Assembly: GCA_023127875.1 (NCBI GenBank)
Contig: JAGMFA010000124.1
Coordinates: 1-6,190, forward strand
Length of the DNA stretch: 6,190 nt
From: Candidatus Zixiibacteriota bacterium
GTDB taxonomy: Bacteria > Zixibacteria > MSB-5A5 > SM1-73
Direction: 5' to 3'
The translations under genes were made by a program, and so were the position numbers. Below the pieces are notes generated by a model that was given only the letters and a program-made list of their open reading frames with translations, had not been told where the DNA came from and made no database searches. This document shows, piece by piece, positions 1 to 5,898 of this stretch (position 1 is the stretch's first letter; every line of letters begins with the position of its first letter).

Positions 1-893
1 ACGACAAAGTTGCCAGAGGGATCCATGGCAATAGCAGGCTCATCTACGTAAGCAGCCCCAGTATCATCATTCACCTCGAAATTGGAGCCTAAGGGAGTGC
101 CAGAAGAATCATATCTCTGCGCATAGATATCCCGGTGCAAATTGCCAATATCGCGTTCATCTGTCCAGCAGATCACAAAGTTGCCGGAGTAATCCATAGC
201 AATGGCAGGGTTCCACTGCCAAAGAAGCCCAGTATCATCATTTACCACGAAGTTGGAGCCTATAGGTGAGCCTGAGGAGTCATATCTCTGAGCATAGATA
301 TGATAGTGACCACTGCGTTCATCTTCCCAGACGATGACAAAGTTGCCCAAGACATCCATAGCAATGGCGGGATTCATCTGGCGAGCAGTTCCAGCATCAT
401 CATTCACCTTGAAGTTAGAGCCTAAGGGAGTGCCTGAGGAATCATATCTCTGAGCATAGATATCCCAGTTACCATTGCGAAAATCTTCCCAGGTGATGAC
501 AAAGTTGCCAGATGGGTTTCGGGCTGTGGCTGAGTAACGCTGATCACAATCTCCGGCGATATCATCATTTACCAGAAAATCGTCAATTATTGACCCAAGT
601 AATTCTTTCCCCTGTCCTCCAGGTTCGTTTTCGGAAAAGCTTAAGGGAGCACCTCTTGGATTGTAAAATGGGTGCTTATTGCAGGGATATAGATTCGGCT
701 CAAACCCCCTTCCCCTGAATGAGTCTCTTTCGGGTCCTCTAAGTCCTTTGAGAGAAGATTCAGAACCTGGTTGACCAGCTAAAACCTGTAGTGAGCGTAG
801 CGAATCTAGAGGCAAAAAGGAGATAAGAAAAATCACCAGGCTGAAAAAGAAAACTTTAGGAATCCGATTTTGGGTCCATCGGATAGCACGCAT
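1..893 (-). CDS. Secreted repeat protein with DIYAQRYDSSG repeats, N-terminal part (runs off left edge)
   Basis: The frame is open from the ATG at 893-891 to the window edge (297 codons plus two bases), so the C-terminus is missing. Residues 1-12 are basic (MRAIRWTQNRIPK) and about 14-29 are strongly hydrophobic (VFFFSLVIFLISFLPL), which is a signal peptide, so the product is exported. Residues 35-100 are an unrecognised, Gly/Pro/Ser-rich linker. From residue 129 come three tandem repeats of 54, 54 and 57 residues, with a fourth beginning at the edge. The consensus is GNFVIxWEDER...DIYAQRYDSSG, then PLGSNFxVNDD and PAIAMD. Similar repeats occur in large secreted or surface proteins and probably form beta-propeller or beta-rich blades; no catalytic site is visible. 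By analogy with the gene at 4459-5898, a sorting domain may lie in the missing end. The start is supported by the signal peptide placement, a weak purine-rich RBS (GAAAGAAG, 900-907) and a promoter at 948-976. Confidence 0.85.
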   Translation of the reverse strand, partial: MRAIRWTQNRIPKVFFFSLVIFLISFLPLDSLRSLQVLAGQPGSESSLKGLRGPERDSFRGRGFEPNLYPCNKHPFYNPRGAPLSFSENEPGGQGKELLGSIIDDFLVNDDIAGDCDQRYSATARNPSGNFVITWEDFRNGNWDIYAQRYDSSGTPLGSNFKVNDDAGTARQMNPAIAMDVLGNFVIVWEDERSGHYHIYAQRYDSSGSPIGSNFVVNDDTGLLWQWNPAIAMDYSGNFVICWTDERDIGNLHRDIYAQRYDSSGTPLGSNFEVNDDTGAAYVDEPAIAMDPSGNFV

Positions 894-1282: not shown

Positions 1283-2758
1283 ATGAATGCTTCGCATATG
1301 ACTTCTTTTTATGGTGAGCGGGCAGACGCCCGCCCGTCTGGGCGCAGTCGAACCATAAAAGATTTCTGGAAAAAGCTTTTTGCCCGTCAGGGATCGAACC
1401 CTTCAGCAAAAAGGATGAAAGAAAGAAATTTTCACGTTATGATTGGTCAGAATTTTGGAGGGAGTAAGGCAAAAAAGAGGAATTTTCCCACAGGATCTGT
1501 AGGAAAAGATTTTCCCATCTCTCCGGTTTCCAAAAGAACCTCATATCTGGATCAGGGAGAGCTTTTATTACCGCAATCCAGCTTGTATGACAGTTCCTTT
1601 CGGATCAGGCTTTACCGGTTTTTGAGGGACAGCATACCGGTCTTGAATTCTGCGATCTGGACCTGGACCCGCATCTGTGCCTCCCCCAGCCATTTTGAAT
1701 TAAAAGGTCCAGTCGGAGATCCCGCCCGTGGCGGGGCTGAAAATCCCGCCAAAGGCGAGGATGATCCAAAGCTTTTGGATAATGCGTCTGAAGTGCTCAA
1801 AAATTTGGATCGGCGCATATATCAACACAGCTTCCAGAAGTTCGGCGGAGCAGATGCACTTTTGATGCAATTTTTCGGCTCACTCTTCACCGACGGGGCA
1901 GTGTGCGGAGAGTTGGTCTTAACCCCATCCAGAGATAAGTTGGATAAATTTTATTTCATCGATCCTGCCACCATCAGATTTAAGCTAAAAGATGACACCA
2001 GTTGGGAGCTTTATCAGGAGGTGGATGGGGTCCAAGTCAAGCTTAATCCAGCTTCCACTTTCTATCTCGGTTTGGACCCGGATGCGGACGATCCCAGAGG
2101 GAAAAGCATTTTGAGCTCGATTCCCTTCGTGGCAAGGGTGGAGGAAAGGCTTTTGGAGGATATGCAAAAGACCATGCACAACGCGGGTTACCATCGTTTG
2201 CACGTGACCATAAAGCCACCAGAGAGGTTTTCCGGTGAGTCGGACGAGACTTACGTTTCAAGGGCAAATAAGTATTTTGAGGATACGGTGGAAATGATGA
2301 AGGAACTGGCTCCGGAGGATAATCCCATTACCTGGAACGACGTCGGAATCGAATACATCGGTCCATCCGGGCACGTTGCCTCCTCCAACTATTGGTATAT
2401 CAACCATAAAGCCTTGGTGGAGGACATCTGTTCCGGAGTGCATTTGGACCCCTTCATGTTGGGCTATTCCTACGGACCTACCAGAAGTTGGGCGCAGTTT
2501 AAATATGAACTGATCTTACGAAACGTCATCTCCATCCAGAGATTAGCTAAAAGATTTATGGAGTGGATCAGAAACATCGAGCTGGCTTTGTGGGGAATTC
2601 CGCTGGAGTCTGTGCATCATTTCGATAACCGAAAGTTCTTCGGAATGCTGGAACAAAGAGAAGCAGAAAAGATTCATCTGGAAAATATCATTCGGAAAAA
2701 AGAGGCGGGATTTATCTCAGAAGACCAGGCCAAGAGAGAGATAGAGAGTGAAGAGTAA
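1283..2758 (+). CDS. Phage-type portal protein
   Basis: The 491-residue length is usual for a portal, the dodecameric ring at the capsid vertex through which DNA is packaged and on which the terminase docks. The call rests on overall pattern. The core is NSAIWTWTRICASPSHFEL (about 122-140), then GxLVLTP (about 209), FIDPATIRFK (225-234), a DPRGKSILSSIPFV segment (270-283), and a long helical stretch. ALVEDICSGVHLDPFMLGYS (377-396) matches the portal pattern where a hydrophobic helix precedes a Pro and LG. The C-terminal KKEAGFISEDQAKREI is the G-hIS-xxxA/R ending common in portals. It is followed after 116 bases by terminase. Oddities: residues 1-43 are encoded by successive palindromic repeats, residues 14-21 are an 8-codon insertion shared with TerL, and residues 145-160 are two 8-codon palindrome units. 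The domain call is firm; the exact subfamily and true N-terminus are not. Confidence 0.82.
   Translation: MNASHMTSFYGERADARPSGRSRTIKDFWKKLFARQGSNPSAKRMKERNFHVMIGQNFGGSKAKKRNFPTGSVGKDFPISPVSKRTSYLDQGELLLPQSSLYDSSFRIRLYRFLRDSIPVLNSAIWTWTRICASPSHFELKGPVGDPARGGAENPAKGEDDPKLLDNASEVLKNLDRRIYQHSFQKFGGADALLMQFFGSLFTDGAVCGELVLTPSRDKLDKFYFIDPATIRFKLKDDTSWELYQEVDGVQVKLNPASTFYLGLDPDADDPRGKSILSSIPFVARVEERLLEDMQKTMHNAGYHRLHVTIKPPERFSGESDETYVSRANKYFEDTVEMMKELAPEDNPITWNDVGIEYIGPSGHVASSNYWYINHKALVEDICSGVHLDPFMLGYSYGPTRSWAQFKYELILRNVISIQRLAKRFMEWIRNIELALWGIPLESVHHFDNRKFFGMLEQREAEKIHLENIIRKKEAGFISEDQAKREIESEE
1311..1356. repeat. Palindromic repeat with a second palindrome nested inside it, in portal
   Basis: The ends ATGGTGAGCG (1311-1320) and AGTCGAACCAT (1346-1356) match, base for base, the reverse complement of the uninterrupted 22-bp repeat at 6008-6029. 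Here they are split by 24 extra bases (1322-1345) that exactly cover portal codons 14-21 (ADARPSGR), so the frame is kept. The insert forms its own hairpins: GCGGGC/GCCCGC (1318-1333) and CAGACG/CGTCTG (1323-1340). It is related to TerL 4141-4164. Confidence 0.75.
1376..1413. repeat. Nested inverted repeat inside portal N-terminus
   Basis: CTTTTTGC (1376-1383) pairs with GCAAAAAG (1406-1413). Within the loop AGGG (1389-1392) pairs with CCCT (1399-1402) around TCGA. It encodes about residues 32-43 (LFARQGSNPSAK). It has the same nested-hairpin style as the other elements but no clear sequence match to them, so it may be a separate repeat family. Confidence 0.5.
1719..1766 (+). repeat. Two tandem 24-bp GC-rich palindromic units inside portal
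   Basis: CCCGCC-CGT-GGCGGG (1721-1735) is a perfect hairpin. A second copy 24 bases later, CCCGCC-AAA-GGCGAGG (1745-1760), has decayed on one arm. The 24-bp period equals 8 codons, giving GDPARGGA then ENPAKGED (portal residues 145-160). The GC content is clearly higher than in the surrounding gene. The placement after a beta-strand (SHFELKGP) suggests a surface loop that tolerates insertion. Confidence 0.7.
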
Positions 2759-2818
2759 AGAGATCATACACTAAGACAAACGCATTTATTTCTGATACAG
2801 AGCGCCCCCTCACCTTAT

Positions 2819-2841
2819 CCCTCTCCCCTGTGGGGAGAGGG
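2819..2841. repeat. Hairpin repeat between portal and terminase
   Basis: CCCTCTCCCC (2819-2828), loop TGT, and GGGGAGAGGG (2832-2841) form a perfect 10-bp stem, preceded by CCCCCTCACCTTATC. This resembles the CCCTCACC...CTCTCCCC repeats that I recall as dispersed in many bacterial genomes. No T tract follows on the plus strand, so it is a poor intrinsic terminator. It could stabilise or attenuate a portal-terL transcript. Confidence 0.65.
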
Positions 2842-2859
2842 GAAATCAAAAACATTCAC

Positions 2860-2915
2860 TGATATCGAGATTCGATGTTCGCTGCTCGAGCTTCGATACG
2901 AGCTTCGAGATATCA
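2860..2915. repeat. Inverted repeat with internal 12-bp tandem repeat at the start of terL
   Basis: TGATATC (2860-2866) and GATATCA (2909-2915) are exact inverted ends. Between them CGAGCTTCGA occurs twice (2887-2896 and 2899-2908) with a 12-base period, giving the peptide RASIRAS. The ATG at 2875 lies inside this element, so roughly the first 14 residues of the longest terL frame come from repeat DNA. Confidence 0.6.
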
Positions 2916-4335
2916 AGGGATAAAGGATGATGGTTTGTGGAAAACTCATGGTTCGACCGACAAAAAGAAATTTTGGAGAAAAGCGATTCCAGATCCAATC
3001 TTATTTGCCAGAGAATTTCTGGAGATCGAACCTCATCCGGGACAGATAAAGTGGCTTTCTGATTCCACCAAACCTGAGAACGCCCTCCATACCGGGAATC
3101 GCTGGGGGAAAAGCCTGGTTCAAGCCATCAAAATCCTTCACCGTTGTATTTTCAAAATCAGAAATCTTAAATACAATAATACCGATAAATACGAGGCGGT
3201 GAATGCCTCCATCACCCAAGATCAAGCCAAAATCATTTTCAGCAACGTGAGCAGATTGATTAAAGGAAAGCCACTTTTGGAGATTTTGGTGAAGGATATA
3301 AAATTCACCCCCTTTCCTCATATCATTTTTGGAAACGGTGCCATCTTCTGGGCACGATCGACTCAGAGAAGAGGGGAATATCTTCTGGGGCACGACTATG
3401 ATTATTTCAACTTCGATGAGGTGGCATTTGAGCCGCATCCCGAATACGTGGTCAATCAGGTCATCATGATGAGACTGGCAGACAGGGCAGGAATGTTGGA
3501 CTATACCTCAACACCCAAAGGCAAAAACTGGTTTTACCGAAAATGCTGTGAGCTTCAAAAAAATCCCCAAATCGGTTATGTCCAAAATGGAGATTCCCGT
3601 GAAAATCCGCATATAAGCGGAGAATATCTGGAGAGAAAACTGAAAAGTTTATCTCCCAGCAAGATTGAACAAAACATAAAAGGATTATTTATCGACGATG
3701 CTAATCAGGTGATAAGAGAAGAATATATCAGAAATGCGATGAATTCCTCCACCGGTCTGTCCAATCCAATCCCGGGACACCGATATTGTCATGGTTGGGA
3801 CTTAGCCCGCAAAAGGACCTTTACTGTGGGCATTACCCTGGATATAACCCAGAAGCCTTATCAAGTTGTGGCATTTGAGAGGTTTCAAAGAGAGTGGAAG
3901 GACGTTTATGCGGTAATAAGAAAAAGACACAGGGAATATGGTGGAGAGGTGATAATTGATTCCACCGGCTTAGGGGATGTAGTTTTGGCTGAACTATCGG
4001 ACATTAAACCCCAAGGATTCAATTTCGGAGAAAGAGGAGGAAAGGCAAAATCTGAGCTTATTGCTAACCTGGAGCAGATGCATGCTTTAAGCAATGTCGC
4101 CTATCCATATATCGAACAGATCGGGTCCGAAGGATCCCGCCCAGACGGGCGTCCGTCTGGACGCTTCGCGGGAGAGCATGGAGAATTATGGACTTTGCAG
4201 GATGAGCTGCGAAATTTTTACTGGGACAAGAATCAAGAATGCGATGCGGTAATGGCGCTGGCTTTGGCTTTGTGGCTAGTAAGAGAAGGAGGAGAATCGC
4301 CGTTGATTCTGTTGCCAAAGGTGGGAAGGTTATGA
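2875..4335 (+). CDS. terL: Phage terminase large subunit (packaging ATPase-nuclease)
   Basis: At 486 residues this is full length for TerL, which cuts concatemeric phage DNA and pumps it into the prohead through the portal. The N-terminal ATPase shows PHPGQIKWL (53-61), a terminase Walker A TGNRWGKS (73-80), Walker B YFNFDE (177-182) with catalytic Glu182, and the coupling motif TSTP (211-214). The C-terminal RNase H-like nuclease has its three expected acidic residues: Asp309 (HGWDLA), Asp362 (IIDSTGLGD) and Asp457 (CDAVMALALA). All key residues are intact, so it looks functional or recently so. The start is uncertain: ATG 2875 lies in a repeat and has no good RBS. TTG at 2935, preceded by AAGGA (2923-2927), would remove 20 repeat-derived residues and keep every motif. 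Residues about 418-436 are a palindromic insertion in the nuclease domain, between the second and third Asp. No small terminase gene is visible. Confidence 0.93.
   Translation: MFAARASIRASRYQGIKDDGLWKTHGSTDKKKFWRKAIPDPILFAREFLEIEPHPGQIKWLSDSTKPENALHTGNRWGKSLVQAIKILHRCIFKIRNLKYNNTDKYEAVNASITQDQAKIIFSNVSRLIKGKPLLEILVKDIKFTPFPHIIFGNGAIFWARSTQRRGEYLLGHDYDYFNFDEVAFEPHPEYVVNQVIMMRLADRAGMLDYTSTPKGKNWFYRKCCELQKNPQIGYVQNGDSRENPHISGEYLERKLKSLSPSKIEQNIKGLFIDDANQVIREEYIRNAMNSSTGLSNPIPGHRYCHGWDLARKRTFTVGITLDITQKPYQVVAFERFQREWKDVYAVIRKRHREYGGEVIIDSTGLGDVVLAELSDIKPQGFNFGERGGKAKSELIANLEQMHALSNVAYPYIEQIGSEGSRPDGRPSGRFAGEHGELWTLQDELRNFYWDKNQECDAVMALALALWLVREGGESPLILLPKVGRL
4135..4173. repeat. In-frame palindromic insertion inside terL
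   Basis: TCCCGC (4135-4140) and GCGGGA (4168-4173) enclose CCAGACGG-GCGT-CCGTCTGG (4141-4160), a perfect 8-bp hairpin. Codons 423-430 (PDGRPSGR, 4141-4164) match portal codons 14-21 (ADARPSGR) at 19 of 24 bases in direct orientation. In inverted orientation, 4139-4164 matches 1318-1343 at 22 of 26. The left flank TCCGAAGGATC (4126-4136) is also found at 1214-1224. The insert lies before the last nuclease motif, in a segment (IEQI ... LWTLQDELRNF) that normally continues without such a linker. Confidence 0.75.
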
Positions 4336-4390: not shown

Positions 4391-4421
4391 GTTGGGGCAG
4401 GGGTTGAACCCCTGCCCCAAC
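4391..4421. repeat. Perfect 31-bp palindrome between convergent genes
   Basis: GTTGGGGCAGGGGTT (4391-4405) and AACCCCTGCCCCAAC (4407-4421) are exact reverse complements around a single G. It lies in the 123-base gap between the stops of terL (plus) and the beta-propeller gene (minus), so it could end transcription from both sides. Neither side has a clear T tract, so this would need Rho or the hairpin alone. It may instead be a mobile short repeat. Confidence 0.7.
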
Positions 4422-4439: not shown

Positions 4440-4459
4440 AATCCGTTCTATCCGTTGAC
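4440..4459 (-). repeat. CGGAT repeat, right copy (inverted)
   Basis: Read on the minus strand, GTCAACGGATAGAACGGATT pairs with the left copy at 4343-4361. Its core is 13 of 15 identical to the other copies. Its first base is the last base of the TAG stop of the gene at 4459-5898, so the repeat abuts the coding end exactly. Confidence 0.6.
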
Positions 4460-5898
4460 TACCTTAAGAGTAGCATCTTCTTCGTTTCGCTATAATTTCC
4501 TGCTTTTAATTGATAGAAATAGATTCCGCTGGCGACCTCTTTCCCCAAATCATCTTTCCCGTCCCAGATGACTTCATAGTTTCCCGCCCTTTTCGGCCCA
4601 TCCACCAAGGTCCTCACCTTCTGCCCCAGAATATTATAGATTTTGAGGGATGTGTGGATGGGACGGTGAACTATGAACTGTGAACCATGAACGGTGAAGG
4701 GTATCTTGGTGGTAGGGTTAAACGGATTGGGATAGTTCTGCTTCAAGGAGAAGTGCGGGATTATCTGGGTTTCCTGATCTTCTTCTACGGCAGTGGGTGG
4801 AGAGCAAGCGATAACCGAGATGCTTGAACTATCATAATTGGCACAATAGATTTTGTTATTGGTGGAATCGTAAGCCAAAGCTATAGGGTAATCTACAAAG
4901 GGCACTGTGGCTATCACCGAATCACCCGCGCCATCAATGATGGTGACATTGTCACTTAGCGCATTGGCGCAGTAGATTTTATTGTTTTTGGAATTGTAGG
5001 CCAGAGCTAAAGGTGTAGAGCCCACCGCCAGTGTTGTTATTATGGAATTGCCTATACCATCGATAATAGAAACACTATTGCTTTGGGAGTTAGCACAATA
5101 AACTTTATTGTTTGTGGGATTATAGGCCAACGCGCAAGGATATGATTCGACTGAGACTATAGCTAACACGGTATCTCCAGTTCCATTGATTATGGTTACG
5201 GTGTGACTTGATATGTTTGTGCAGTAGATTTTGTTTTGTTGGAAATTATACACTAAAGAATAAGGGCCATCGCCAACAGGGACTGTGGTTCTCACTGTAT
5301 CACCATCTCCGTCTATTATACTAACGTTATCACTTCCCCCATTTGCACAATAGATTTTATTGTCTGTGGAGTTATAGACTAAATCTCTAGGAGCTAACCC
5401 TACCGAAACGGTGCGGAGGAGTGAATCAGTGGCTCCGTTAATGATACTCACATTGTGACTTTGACAATTTCCACAGTAGACTTTGTTGTCGATGGTATTA
5501 TGCACTAAAACGCGAGGATAAGAGCCCACTGTAATCGTGGTTATCACTGAATCGTCTGTTCCGTCAATAACGGTAACATTGCCTCTTTCAGCATTTGCAC
5601 AATAGATCTTGTCGTCAGTGCGATTATGGTCTAAGGGGTTAGAGGAAAGGAATTGACCAAGGCTACCCGCTGGCAGTGTGGCTATTACTGAGTCTTTTGC
5701 ACCATCCACAATAGTGACACTGTCCGTCCCGTCATAACCACAATAGATTTTATTGTCAGAAGGATTGTAAAGTAAAGCCGCAGGGTGGCCTACGACATCA
5801 ATGGTAACAATGACTGAGTCGGATTGCGCAATGCAGAGGGAGTAAAAAGAGAATGAAATGATGAACATAACAAAGACAAAACTGAGATTCTTACACAT
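4459..5898 (-). CDS. Secreted YVTN-like beta-propeller protein with T9SS sorting domain
   Basis: Of 479 residues, 1-24 form a signal peptide (MCKNLSFVFVMFIISFSFYS, cleavage probably after LCIA), although the Cys does not fit a lipobox well. Residues 27-366 hold eight tandem repeats of 42 residues (the second is 47). The pattern is DSVIATVxVGxxPxALxYNxxxNKIYCANxxSxNVxIIDG, close to YVTN beta-propeller repeats (NKIYVAN...VSVIDG), so an eight-bladed or seven-plus-one propeller is likely. Residues 383-479 match a T9SS type A sorting domain: NYPNPFNPTTKI, LKIYNILGQKVRTLVDG, YEVIWDGKDDLGKEVASGIYFYQLKAG, KKMLLLR. The protein should cross the outer membrane by T9SS and stay attached or be released; ligand and role are unknown. 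No enzyme motif is seen. Oddities: every blade has Cys where the family usually has Val (YCAN), and a heptamer DNA repeat encodes part of the sorting domain (about residues 400-412). The start is firm, with GAGGAGGAG just upstream. Confidence 0.92.
   Translation of the reverse strand: MCKNLSFVFVMFIISFSFYSLCIAQSDSVIVTIDVVGHPAALLYNPSDNKIYCGYDGTDSVTIVDGAKDSVIATLPAGSLGQFLSSNPLDHNRTDDKIYCANAERGNVTVIDGTDDSVITTITVGSYPRVLVHNTIDNKVYCGNCQSHNVSIINGATDSLLRTVSVGLAPRDLVYNSTDNKIYCANGGSDNVSIIDGDGDTVRTTVPVGDGPYSLVYNFQQNKIYCTNISSHTVTIINGTGDTVLAIVSVESYPCALAYNPTNNKVYCANSQSNSVSIIDGIGNSIITTLAVGSTPLALAYNSKNNKIYCANALSDNVTIIDGAGDSVIATVPFVDYPIALAYDSTNNKIYCANYDSSSISVIACSPPTAVEEDQETQIIPHFSLKQNYPNPFNPTTKIPFTVHGSQFIVHRPIHTSLKIYNILGQKVRTLVDGPKRAGNYEVIWDGKDDLGKEVASGIYFYQLKAGNYSETKKMLLLR
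4665..4699 (-). repeat. Five tandem heptamers inside the T9SS sorting domain
   Basis: On the plus strand the units are GGTGAAC, TATGAAC, TGTGAAC, CATGAAC and GGTGAAG, with consensus NRTGAAC. They encode FTVHGSQFIVHRP between two strands of the sorting domain. Seven is not a multiple of three, so gain or loss of one unit would shift the frame and remove the C-terminal sorting signal. Confidence 0.7.

Follow-up and report, generated by a model that had tools for sequence, protein, structure and literature searches.

Gene transfer agents (GTAs) are described in PMC9662315 as particles of caudoviricete-derived proteins that package mostly random host DNA and deliver it to other cells; they are fully endogenized, often over multiple loci, their own genome is not fully packageable and their inheritance is mostly vertical. 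The formal classification of 2022 covers three GTA groups whose genetic basis is established; how common GTAs really are is given as unknown (PMC9662315, PMC11841831). Here we describe a portal gene and a gene for the large terminase subunit (TerL) on a stretch of 6,190 nucleotides of a Candidatus Zixiibacteriota bacterium (contig JAGMFA010000124.1; "the window" denotes this whole stretch). We consider it likely that the two genes form the packaging-motor locus of a caudoviral element that Zixibacteria have domesticated and inherit vertically, and that most likely acts as a GTA does. Put simply, these are probably the motor genes of a tamed ancient virus, present in most sequenced Zixibacteria, whose virus-like particles would pack bacterial DNA.

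The element resembles the viriforms RcGTA/Rhodogtaviriformidae, BaGTA and BhGTA, in which caudoviral head and packaging genes are fixed in the host, often at multiple loci, and inherited vertically (PMC9662315). Unlike the known GTAs, it has the order portal-TerL, no recognised tail and, in one clade, a protease-ligase fusion, and it is known from its genes alone. FpGTA I, the candidate GTA operon of Faecalibacterium prausnitzii, is likewise a short cluster with a small terminase subunit (TerS) devoid of an obvious DNA-binding domain, TerL, portal and capsid; however, it belongs to a gut lineage and has GTA-like packaged DNA (PMC12946183), whereas the Zixibacteria element is known as genes and shows phylum-wide co-diversification. 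No publication on a GTA or such an element in Zixibacteria was found, only passing co-mentions, in a search that left preprints and most subscription papers outside.

The two genes of the pair are the following.
1283..2758, + strand: portal gene, 491 amino acids, from an open reading frame (ORF) call and a portal-family match
2875..4335, + strand: TerL gene, an ORF of 486 amino acids matching Terminase_6N and phrog_2, with ATPase and nuclease residues intact

A preliminary description of the window had read these genes as a full-length portal followed by an intact TerL, and ORFs, family matches and motifs agree with that reading; as it also stated, no further gene of phage type was seen within the window. 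The best family match of the portal in the PHROG search is phrog_3753 (E 2.6e-33), no Pfam family matched it in the Pfam search of the window proteins, and its conserved core begins at about residue 107, the N-terminal part being poorly conserved. TerL matches Terminase_6N (Pfam, E 7.3e-5) and phrog_2, terminase large subunit (PHROG, E 5.5e-34). The TerL family profile matched the solved phage TerL structures 5tge, 5m1f and 4zni; the portal and major capsid protein (MCP) profiles matched no solved structure by sequence. The true TerL start lies probably near 2935, not 2875, because relatives align only from 2935. All the motor residues listed at the outset are present (Walker A TGNRWGKS, Walker B D181-E182, STP 212-214, and the nuclease residues D309, D362 and D457). 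Across 76 TerL proteins of 395 or more amino acids, the window's included and the shorter or broken L009, L026, L038, L061, L067 and L068 left out, the ten catalytic and motif positions checked do not vary, with the sole exception of one undetermined residue at D457.

Database searches at E 0.001 gave 391 relatives of the portal, 1100 of TerL and 850 of the MCP. The named organisms among the best 120 listed relatives each of portal and TerL are Zixibacteria, except for one Verrucomicrobiae bin; among the best 120 of the 850 MCP relatives they are again Zixibacteria, except for one Acidobacteriota bin. Genome contigs scanned with TerL yielded 96 confirmed relatives, 80 of which were kept (L001-L080; TerL identity 44-87%). 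By their titles, 68 of the kept contigs are Zixibacteria, Zixiibacteriota or GN15; the labels of the remaining 12 are different or vague. The gene order, which the preliminary description had called reversed, is typical of the group: 73 of 81 loci have a same-strand portal 5' of TerL, across a gap of 67 bases in the median and 2.1 kb at most, with small ORFs in between in some loci. Seven of the eight loci lacking an upstream portal have fewer than 200 bases upstream of TerL, and the eighth, L023, has 1.3 kb without one. Portal-TerL neighbours thus recur throughout Zixibacteria.

Clustering of ORFs revealed a same-strand block downstream of TerL that comprises f3, f6, f16, f7, MCP, f9, f15, f17, f14 and f27. 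The MCP is a "major head protein" (phrog_3922, E 7.8e-61) with a mean identity over aligned columns of 69% in 26 sequences (TerL: 63% in another set of 30), and f7 has a weak virion structural match (E 7.7e-5). PHROG and Pfam gave no clear function for f6, f16, f17 and a protein of 460-540 amino acids. The head module consists of a capsid-maturation protease, a possible decoration protein, the MCP, a propeller-like protein, f15 and the TerS-like f14, and it lies adjacent to portal-TerL in some genomes and far away in others. By similarity (TerL, portal, major head protein, capsid-protease fold), its proteins and those of the pair appear to be caudoviricete-derived, as in GTAs.

A survey of 132 genomes of the phylum of G005 (the genome of L009, titled Zixiibacteriota) gave TerL in 114 and a matching MCP in 111, mostly in single copy. 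The MCP match is single in 108 of the 111, and none contains an internal stop. Either gene occurs in 123 genomes and both in 102. This weakens the option of a domesticated pair without a capsid, one of three that the preliminary description had offered. In 57 of the 102 the MCP lies 3.6-9.7 kb 3' of TerL on the same strand; in nine, among them complete chromosomes, the two stand apart on one contig, and in 36 they are on different contigs. The TerL-MCP distance in complete chromosomes is 1.29 Mb in G005, 411 kb in G012, 91 kb in G013 and 591 kb in G024. Of the closely related G026 and G013, the former is intact and the latter split; therefore splitting recurs. Modules 0.09-1.3 Mb apart could hardly both fit into one capsid. 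The element is thus endogenized over multiple loci, as GTAs often are. Of the options raised earlier, one locus of a split GTA fits best: the pair recurs, its dN/dS is low and, as had been suggested for checking, the genomes of the closest relative, SM1_73 (L001), and several complete chromosomes have a capsid gene at another site.

The host tree was built from RpoB of 30 genomes, the best-scoring of the 46 with a match among 48 searched. The TerL+portal tree shares 21 of 27 splits with it (patristic r 0.84; mean 0.3 and maximum 2 in 1000 label shuffles) and recovers all 18 RpoB splits with support of at least 0.9, with no strong conflict; TerL alone recovers 16 of these and the portal alone 17. 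For the MCP, 25 genomes could be compared (L024, L029, L071, L063 and L057 have no usable MCP), with 16 of 22 splits and 13 of 15 strong ones in common (shuffles: mean 0.26). The dN/dS between the window and SM1_73 is 0.089 for the portal and 0.075 for TerL. It ranges from 0.027 to 0.107 over the 15 of 18 comparisons that yielded a value, some of them with high dS; the propeller flank and both L063-L071 pairs gave none. The portal-TerL and head modules are conserved, mostly single-copy, under purifying selection and largely co-diversifying with the host, in keeping with the vertical inheritance of GTAs.

These results bear on the third option, that ordinary prophages or their remnants are scattered in Zixibacteria, which we regard as highly improbable. 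In its favour, the genes are of phage type, and some lineages lack the MCP or have it broken. Against this stand a distribution over most of the phylum, mainly in single copy, the congruence with RpoB and a dN/dS well below 1; the sporadic distribution and host-incongruent trees of active prophages were not found. Moreover, host genes recur near the cluster: upstream, an unnamed protein is found in 34 of the 81 loci, a TPR protein in 31, a PD-(D/E)XK nuclease in 25 and glycosyltransferases in 12-15. Among the recurrent neighbour proteins typed, which represent only part of the ORFs, there was no integrase or replication family. A prophage remnant is rejected on the grounds of host congruence, distribution and selection.

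In its own lineage the window is sister to SM1_73 (support 0.996), with 83-84% DNA identity over portal and TerL and with DNA resembling the propeller gene downstream of the pair in both. The head module of SM1_73, open from f3 to f27, is on L247 (15.7 kb), a contig other than that of TerL. L247 ends about 1 kb past f3, and closeness to TerL is excluded only by the contig of TerL, which runs into opposite-strand genes. The stand-alone pair is common to the window and SM1_73, and the cluster is intact in the slightly more distant L002; therefore the stand-alone state follows a split. Such a split could have ended function in this lineage, leaving the pair of the window as a decaying leftover, which is quite improbable in our estimation. 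The features that could speak of decay are the short insertions in both genes.
1319..1342, + strand: palindromic in-frame insertion in the portal gene, 8 residues more than the closest relative
1715..1762, + strand: second in-frame insertion in the portal gene, which adds 8 to 17 residues according to the relative compared
4123..4170, + strand: palindromic in-frame insertion in the TerL gene, before the last nuclease Asp; 16 residues, absent from 29 of 29 aligned relatives

The intragenic repeats of the preliminary description are accordingly present in both genes, as short in-frame palindromic insertions. Decay would also be consistent with the truncated TerL of the related G005 and with the failure to find the MCP in some genomes elsewhere in the phylum. 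However, the frames are open, the insertions keep frame, the catalytic residues are intact, the dN/dS given above is low and SM1_73 keeps an open head module. The earlier claim of some selection on the pair holds.

The element also has phage relatives. An IMG/VR scan confirmed 188 relatives, of which 80 were kept: L081 has 55% identity and the Zixibacteria gene block, and the others 23-35%. L081 and the distant L206 (27%) were all that the MCP and portal alignments retrieved in viral scans. Among 50,697 annotated phage records the closest MCPs are those of human-faecal "Bacteriophage sp." (MT836604, MT835952, MT838993, MT835769 and MT835508; 32-35% identity over 84-91%), and the first three of these also match the portal (22-23%); unlike the Zixibacteria element, the five records, which are unannotated, do not appear among the TerL matches to the window listed at E 1e-5. 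The nearest annotated phage TerLs, of Thermus and other phages, are 23-26% identical.

When the ORFs of the viral loci alone were compared with profiles of the Zixibacteria families, three phage contigs, L082, L085 and L101, gave matches, arranged as f15-f14-TerL-portal. The E-values were about 1e-50 or better (f15), 1e-7 to 1e-10 (f14), 1e-65 or better (TerL) and 2e-78 or better (portal). These sister phages differ from the Zixibacteria element in that gene order, in a TerL only 30-32% identical, in the tail fibre or spike genes of L082 and L085 and in f14. Since f14 directly precedes TerL in them, its position and size suggest that it is TerS. Phage f14 has an N-terminal CxxC...HxxxH segment that may bind DNA. 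This segment is present in three of 34 Zixibacteria ORFs (L042, L051, L055) and absent from 31, among them the relatives L054 and L056, some start sites being uncertain. A TerS with no detectable DNA-binding domain is also a property of known GTAs (PMC11841831).

We propose that proheads would be built from the head-module locus, that TerL would dock on the portal of a prohead and fill the head headful by headful, and that chromosomal DNA would be packaged with no sequence specificity, because the TerS homologue lacks the phage-type Cys/His N-terminal segment in most copies. The particles would then be released and their DNA taken up by kin cells. A domesticated capsid element that transfers no genes, serving as a protein container or as a DNA store without delivery, would explain why no convincing tail tube or tape measure appears among the typed module proteins, and why f27 and the adjoining protein of 460-540 amino acids look secreted by their N-termini. 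We judge it unlikely. A portal and a catalytically intact TerL under strong purifying selection argue for continued DNA packaging, and f15 and f14 are shared with phages bearing tail spike or fibre genes.

Several observations weigh against a working, GTA-like element. Delivery appears to be the weakest step of the proposed mechanism: none of the module proteins typed was recognised as a tail tube or tape measure, the likeness of f15 to phage tail or baseplate structures is weak (TM below 0.3), and two long sister-phage proteins matched nothing in 14 genomes in a tail search that had no positive control. No MCP was found in 21 of the 132 genomes, two of which are the complete, TerL-bearing chromosomes G023 and G025; in G024, G116 and G127 it is divided into two pieces. 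An internal stop interrupts TerL in G080 and G065, eight genomes show a second, partial TerL match, and in the complete chromosome G005 TerL ends after about residue 329. The element is being lost or broken in some lineages. Many of the different-contig cases may be assembly breaks. There is one strong conflict between the TerL and portal trees, one between MCP and RpoB and two between MCP and TerL+portal. Finally, the head module of the window's own organism is presumed from that of SM1_73. Loss or breakage of genes occurs in other GTA clades too.

The model of f3 has a capsid-protease fold and is confident only in the protease domain (C-terminal domain block: pLDDT 33-76); Foldseek alone gave no match at E 0.001, and the matches to herpesvirus protease reflect a shared fold only. 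The f3 motif was found in 69 of 96 ORFs and in 68 of the 71 of at least 250 amino acids, a count that takes in short pieces and some genomes twice (e.g. L054 and L209). Unlike T4 gp21 and the herpesvirus assemblin-type capsid proteases, f3 carries C-terminal extensions and, in one clade, a ligase. In five genomes of the window's clade, protease and ATP-dependent DNA ligase are fused in one open frame with a LigD-phosphoesterase-like end.
L247:12345-14624, - strand: protease-ligase fusion ORF
L002:12892-15144: protease-ligase fusion ORF
L003:12528-14729: protease-ligase fusion ORF
L004:13496-15700: protease-ligase fusion ORF
L211:13785-15869, - strand: protease-ligase fusion ORF

The ATP-dependent ligase domain is confined to these five genomes, with the KxDGxR motif in L002, L003, L004 and L247, and ligase catalytic motifs were not seen in f3 outside the window's clade. 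The HxxxxxHxDxR motif of 3'-phosphoesterases is found in L002, L211 and L247; the LigD_N matches are weak, and a phosphoesterase fold match of the C-terminal part, from the low-confidence part of the model, is tentative. LigD works with Ku in bacterial non-homologous end joining. Unlike LigD, the f3 ligase is joined to a capsid protease, and Ku was found in none of 18 genomes, some of them incomplete (the Bacillus subtilis control gave a match). It is the only ATP-dependent ligase found in the fusion-bearing genomes of the window's clade. A bolder version of the proposal, in our view rather improbable, takes the element as an ancient GTA of the whole phylum, older than its radiation, and the particle of the window's clade as a DNA-repair courier: the protease-borne ligase and the 3'-phosphoesterase-like domain would be packed with the DNA and would seal or repair ends in the recipient. 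The repair role proposed so far for GTA-delivered DNA is that of a recombination template (PMC9632790); the fusion would tie particles to DNA repair through their own parts. With its phage sisters, the intermediate states in the loss of the TerS segment and its repeated splitting, a phage-derived packaging system retained by most of an uncultured phylum makes the phage-to-GTA transition accessible to comparison, and a simple virome test of gene transfer in such a phylum becomes possible.

Some complete chromosomes show further details of the element. G023 and G025 (the genomes of L057 and L071) keep TerL, portal and f3, and the capsid gene was not found, an apparent loss. G024 (the genome of L063) has overlapping capsid pieces at 1725304-1725762 and 2322220-2323002, 0.6 Mb apart, from either a rearrangement through the gene or an assembly error. 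In CP070766 (G012; L212 and L213; 2117000-2150000) the head module ends just upstream of rpoB (2137414). A small match to the TerL C-terminus lies near it (2126983-2127114), 411 kb from the main TerL, possibly a scar of the split.

The flanks of the pair in the window are as follows.
3..893, - strand: upstream host flank, a repeat protein with a secreted-looking N-terminus, cut by the window's edge
4459..5898, - strand: downstream host flank, a YNCE/lactonase-type beta-propeller protein with a FlgD/T9SS-type C-terminus

Both had been described as secreted proteins of host type. The downstream one carries secretion-type C-terminal domains (Pfam); for the upstream one, which matched no family above the cut-off, secretion is suggested by the appearance of the N-terminus only. 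Each gene also contains repeats, of 126 nt at window 4837-5784 and of about 162-171 nt at 3-580. The arms of the portal insertion pair with the TerL insertion (1317-1344 versus 4138-4165, 86% complementary), so that one palindromic insertion is common to both genes as inverted arms. The in-frame palindromic insertions of the window are reminiscent of the palindromic elements of Rickettsia and may represent a dispersed repeat of the genome. A perfect 15-nt inverted repeat with a 1-nt loop (window 4391-4421), shortly after TerL, is possibly a terminator between the convergent genes.

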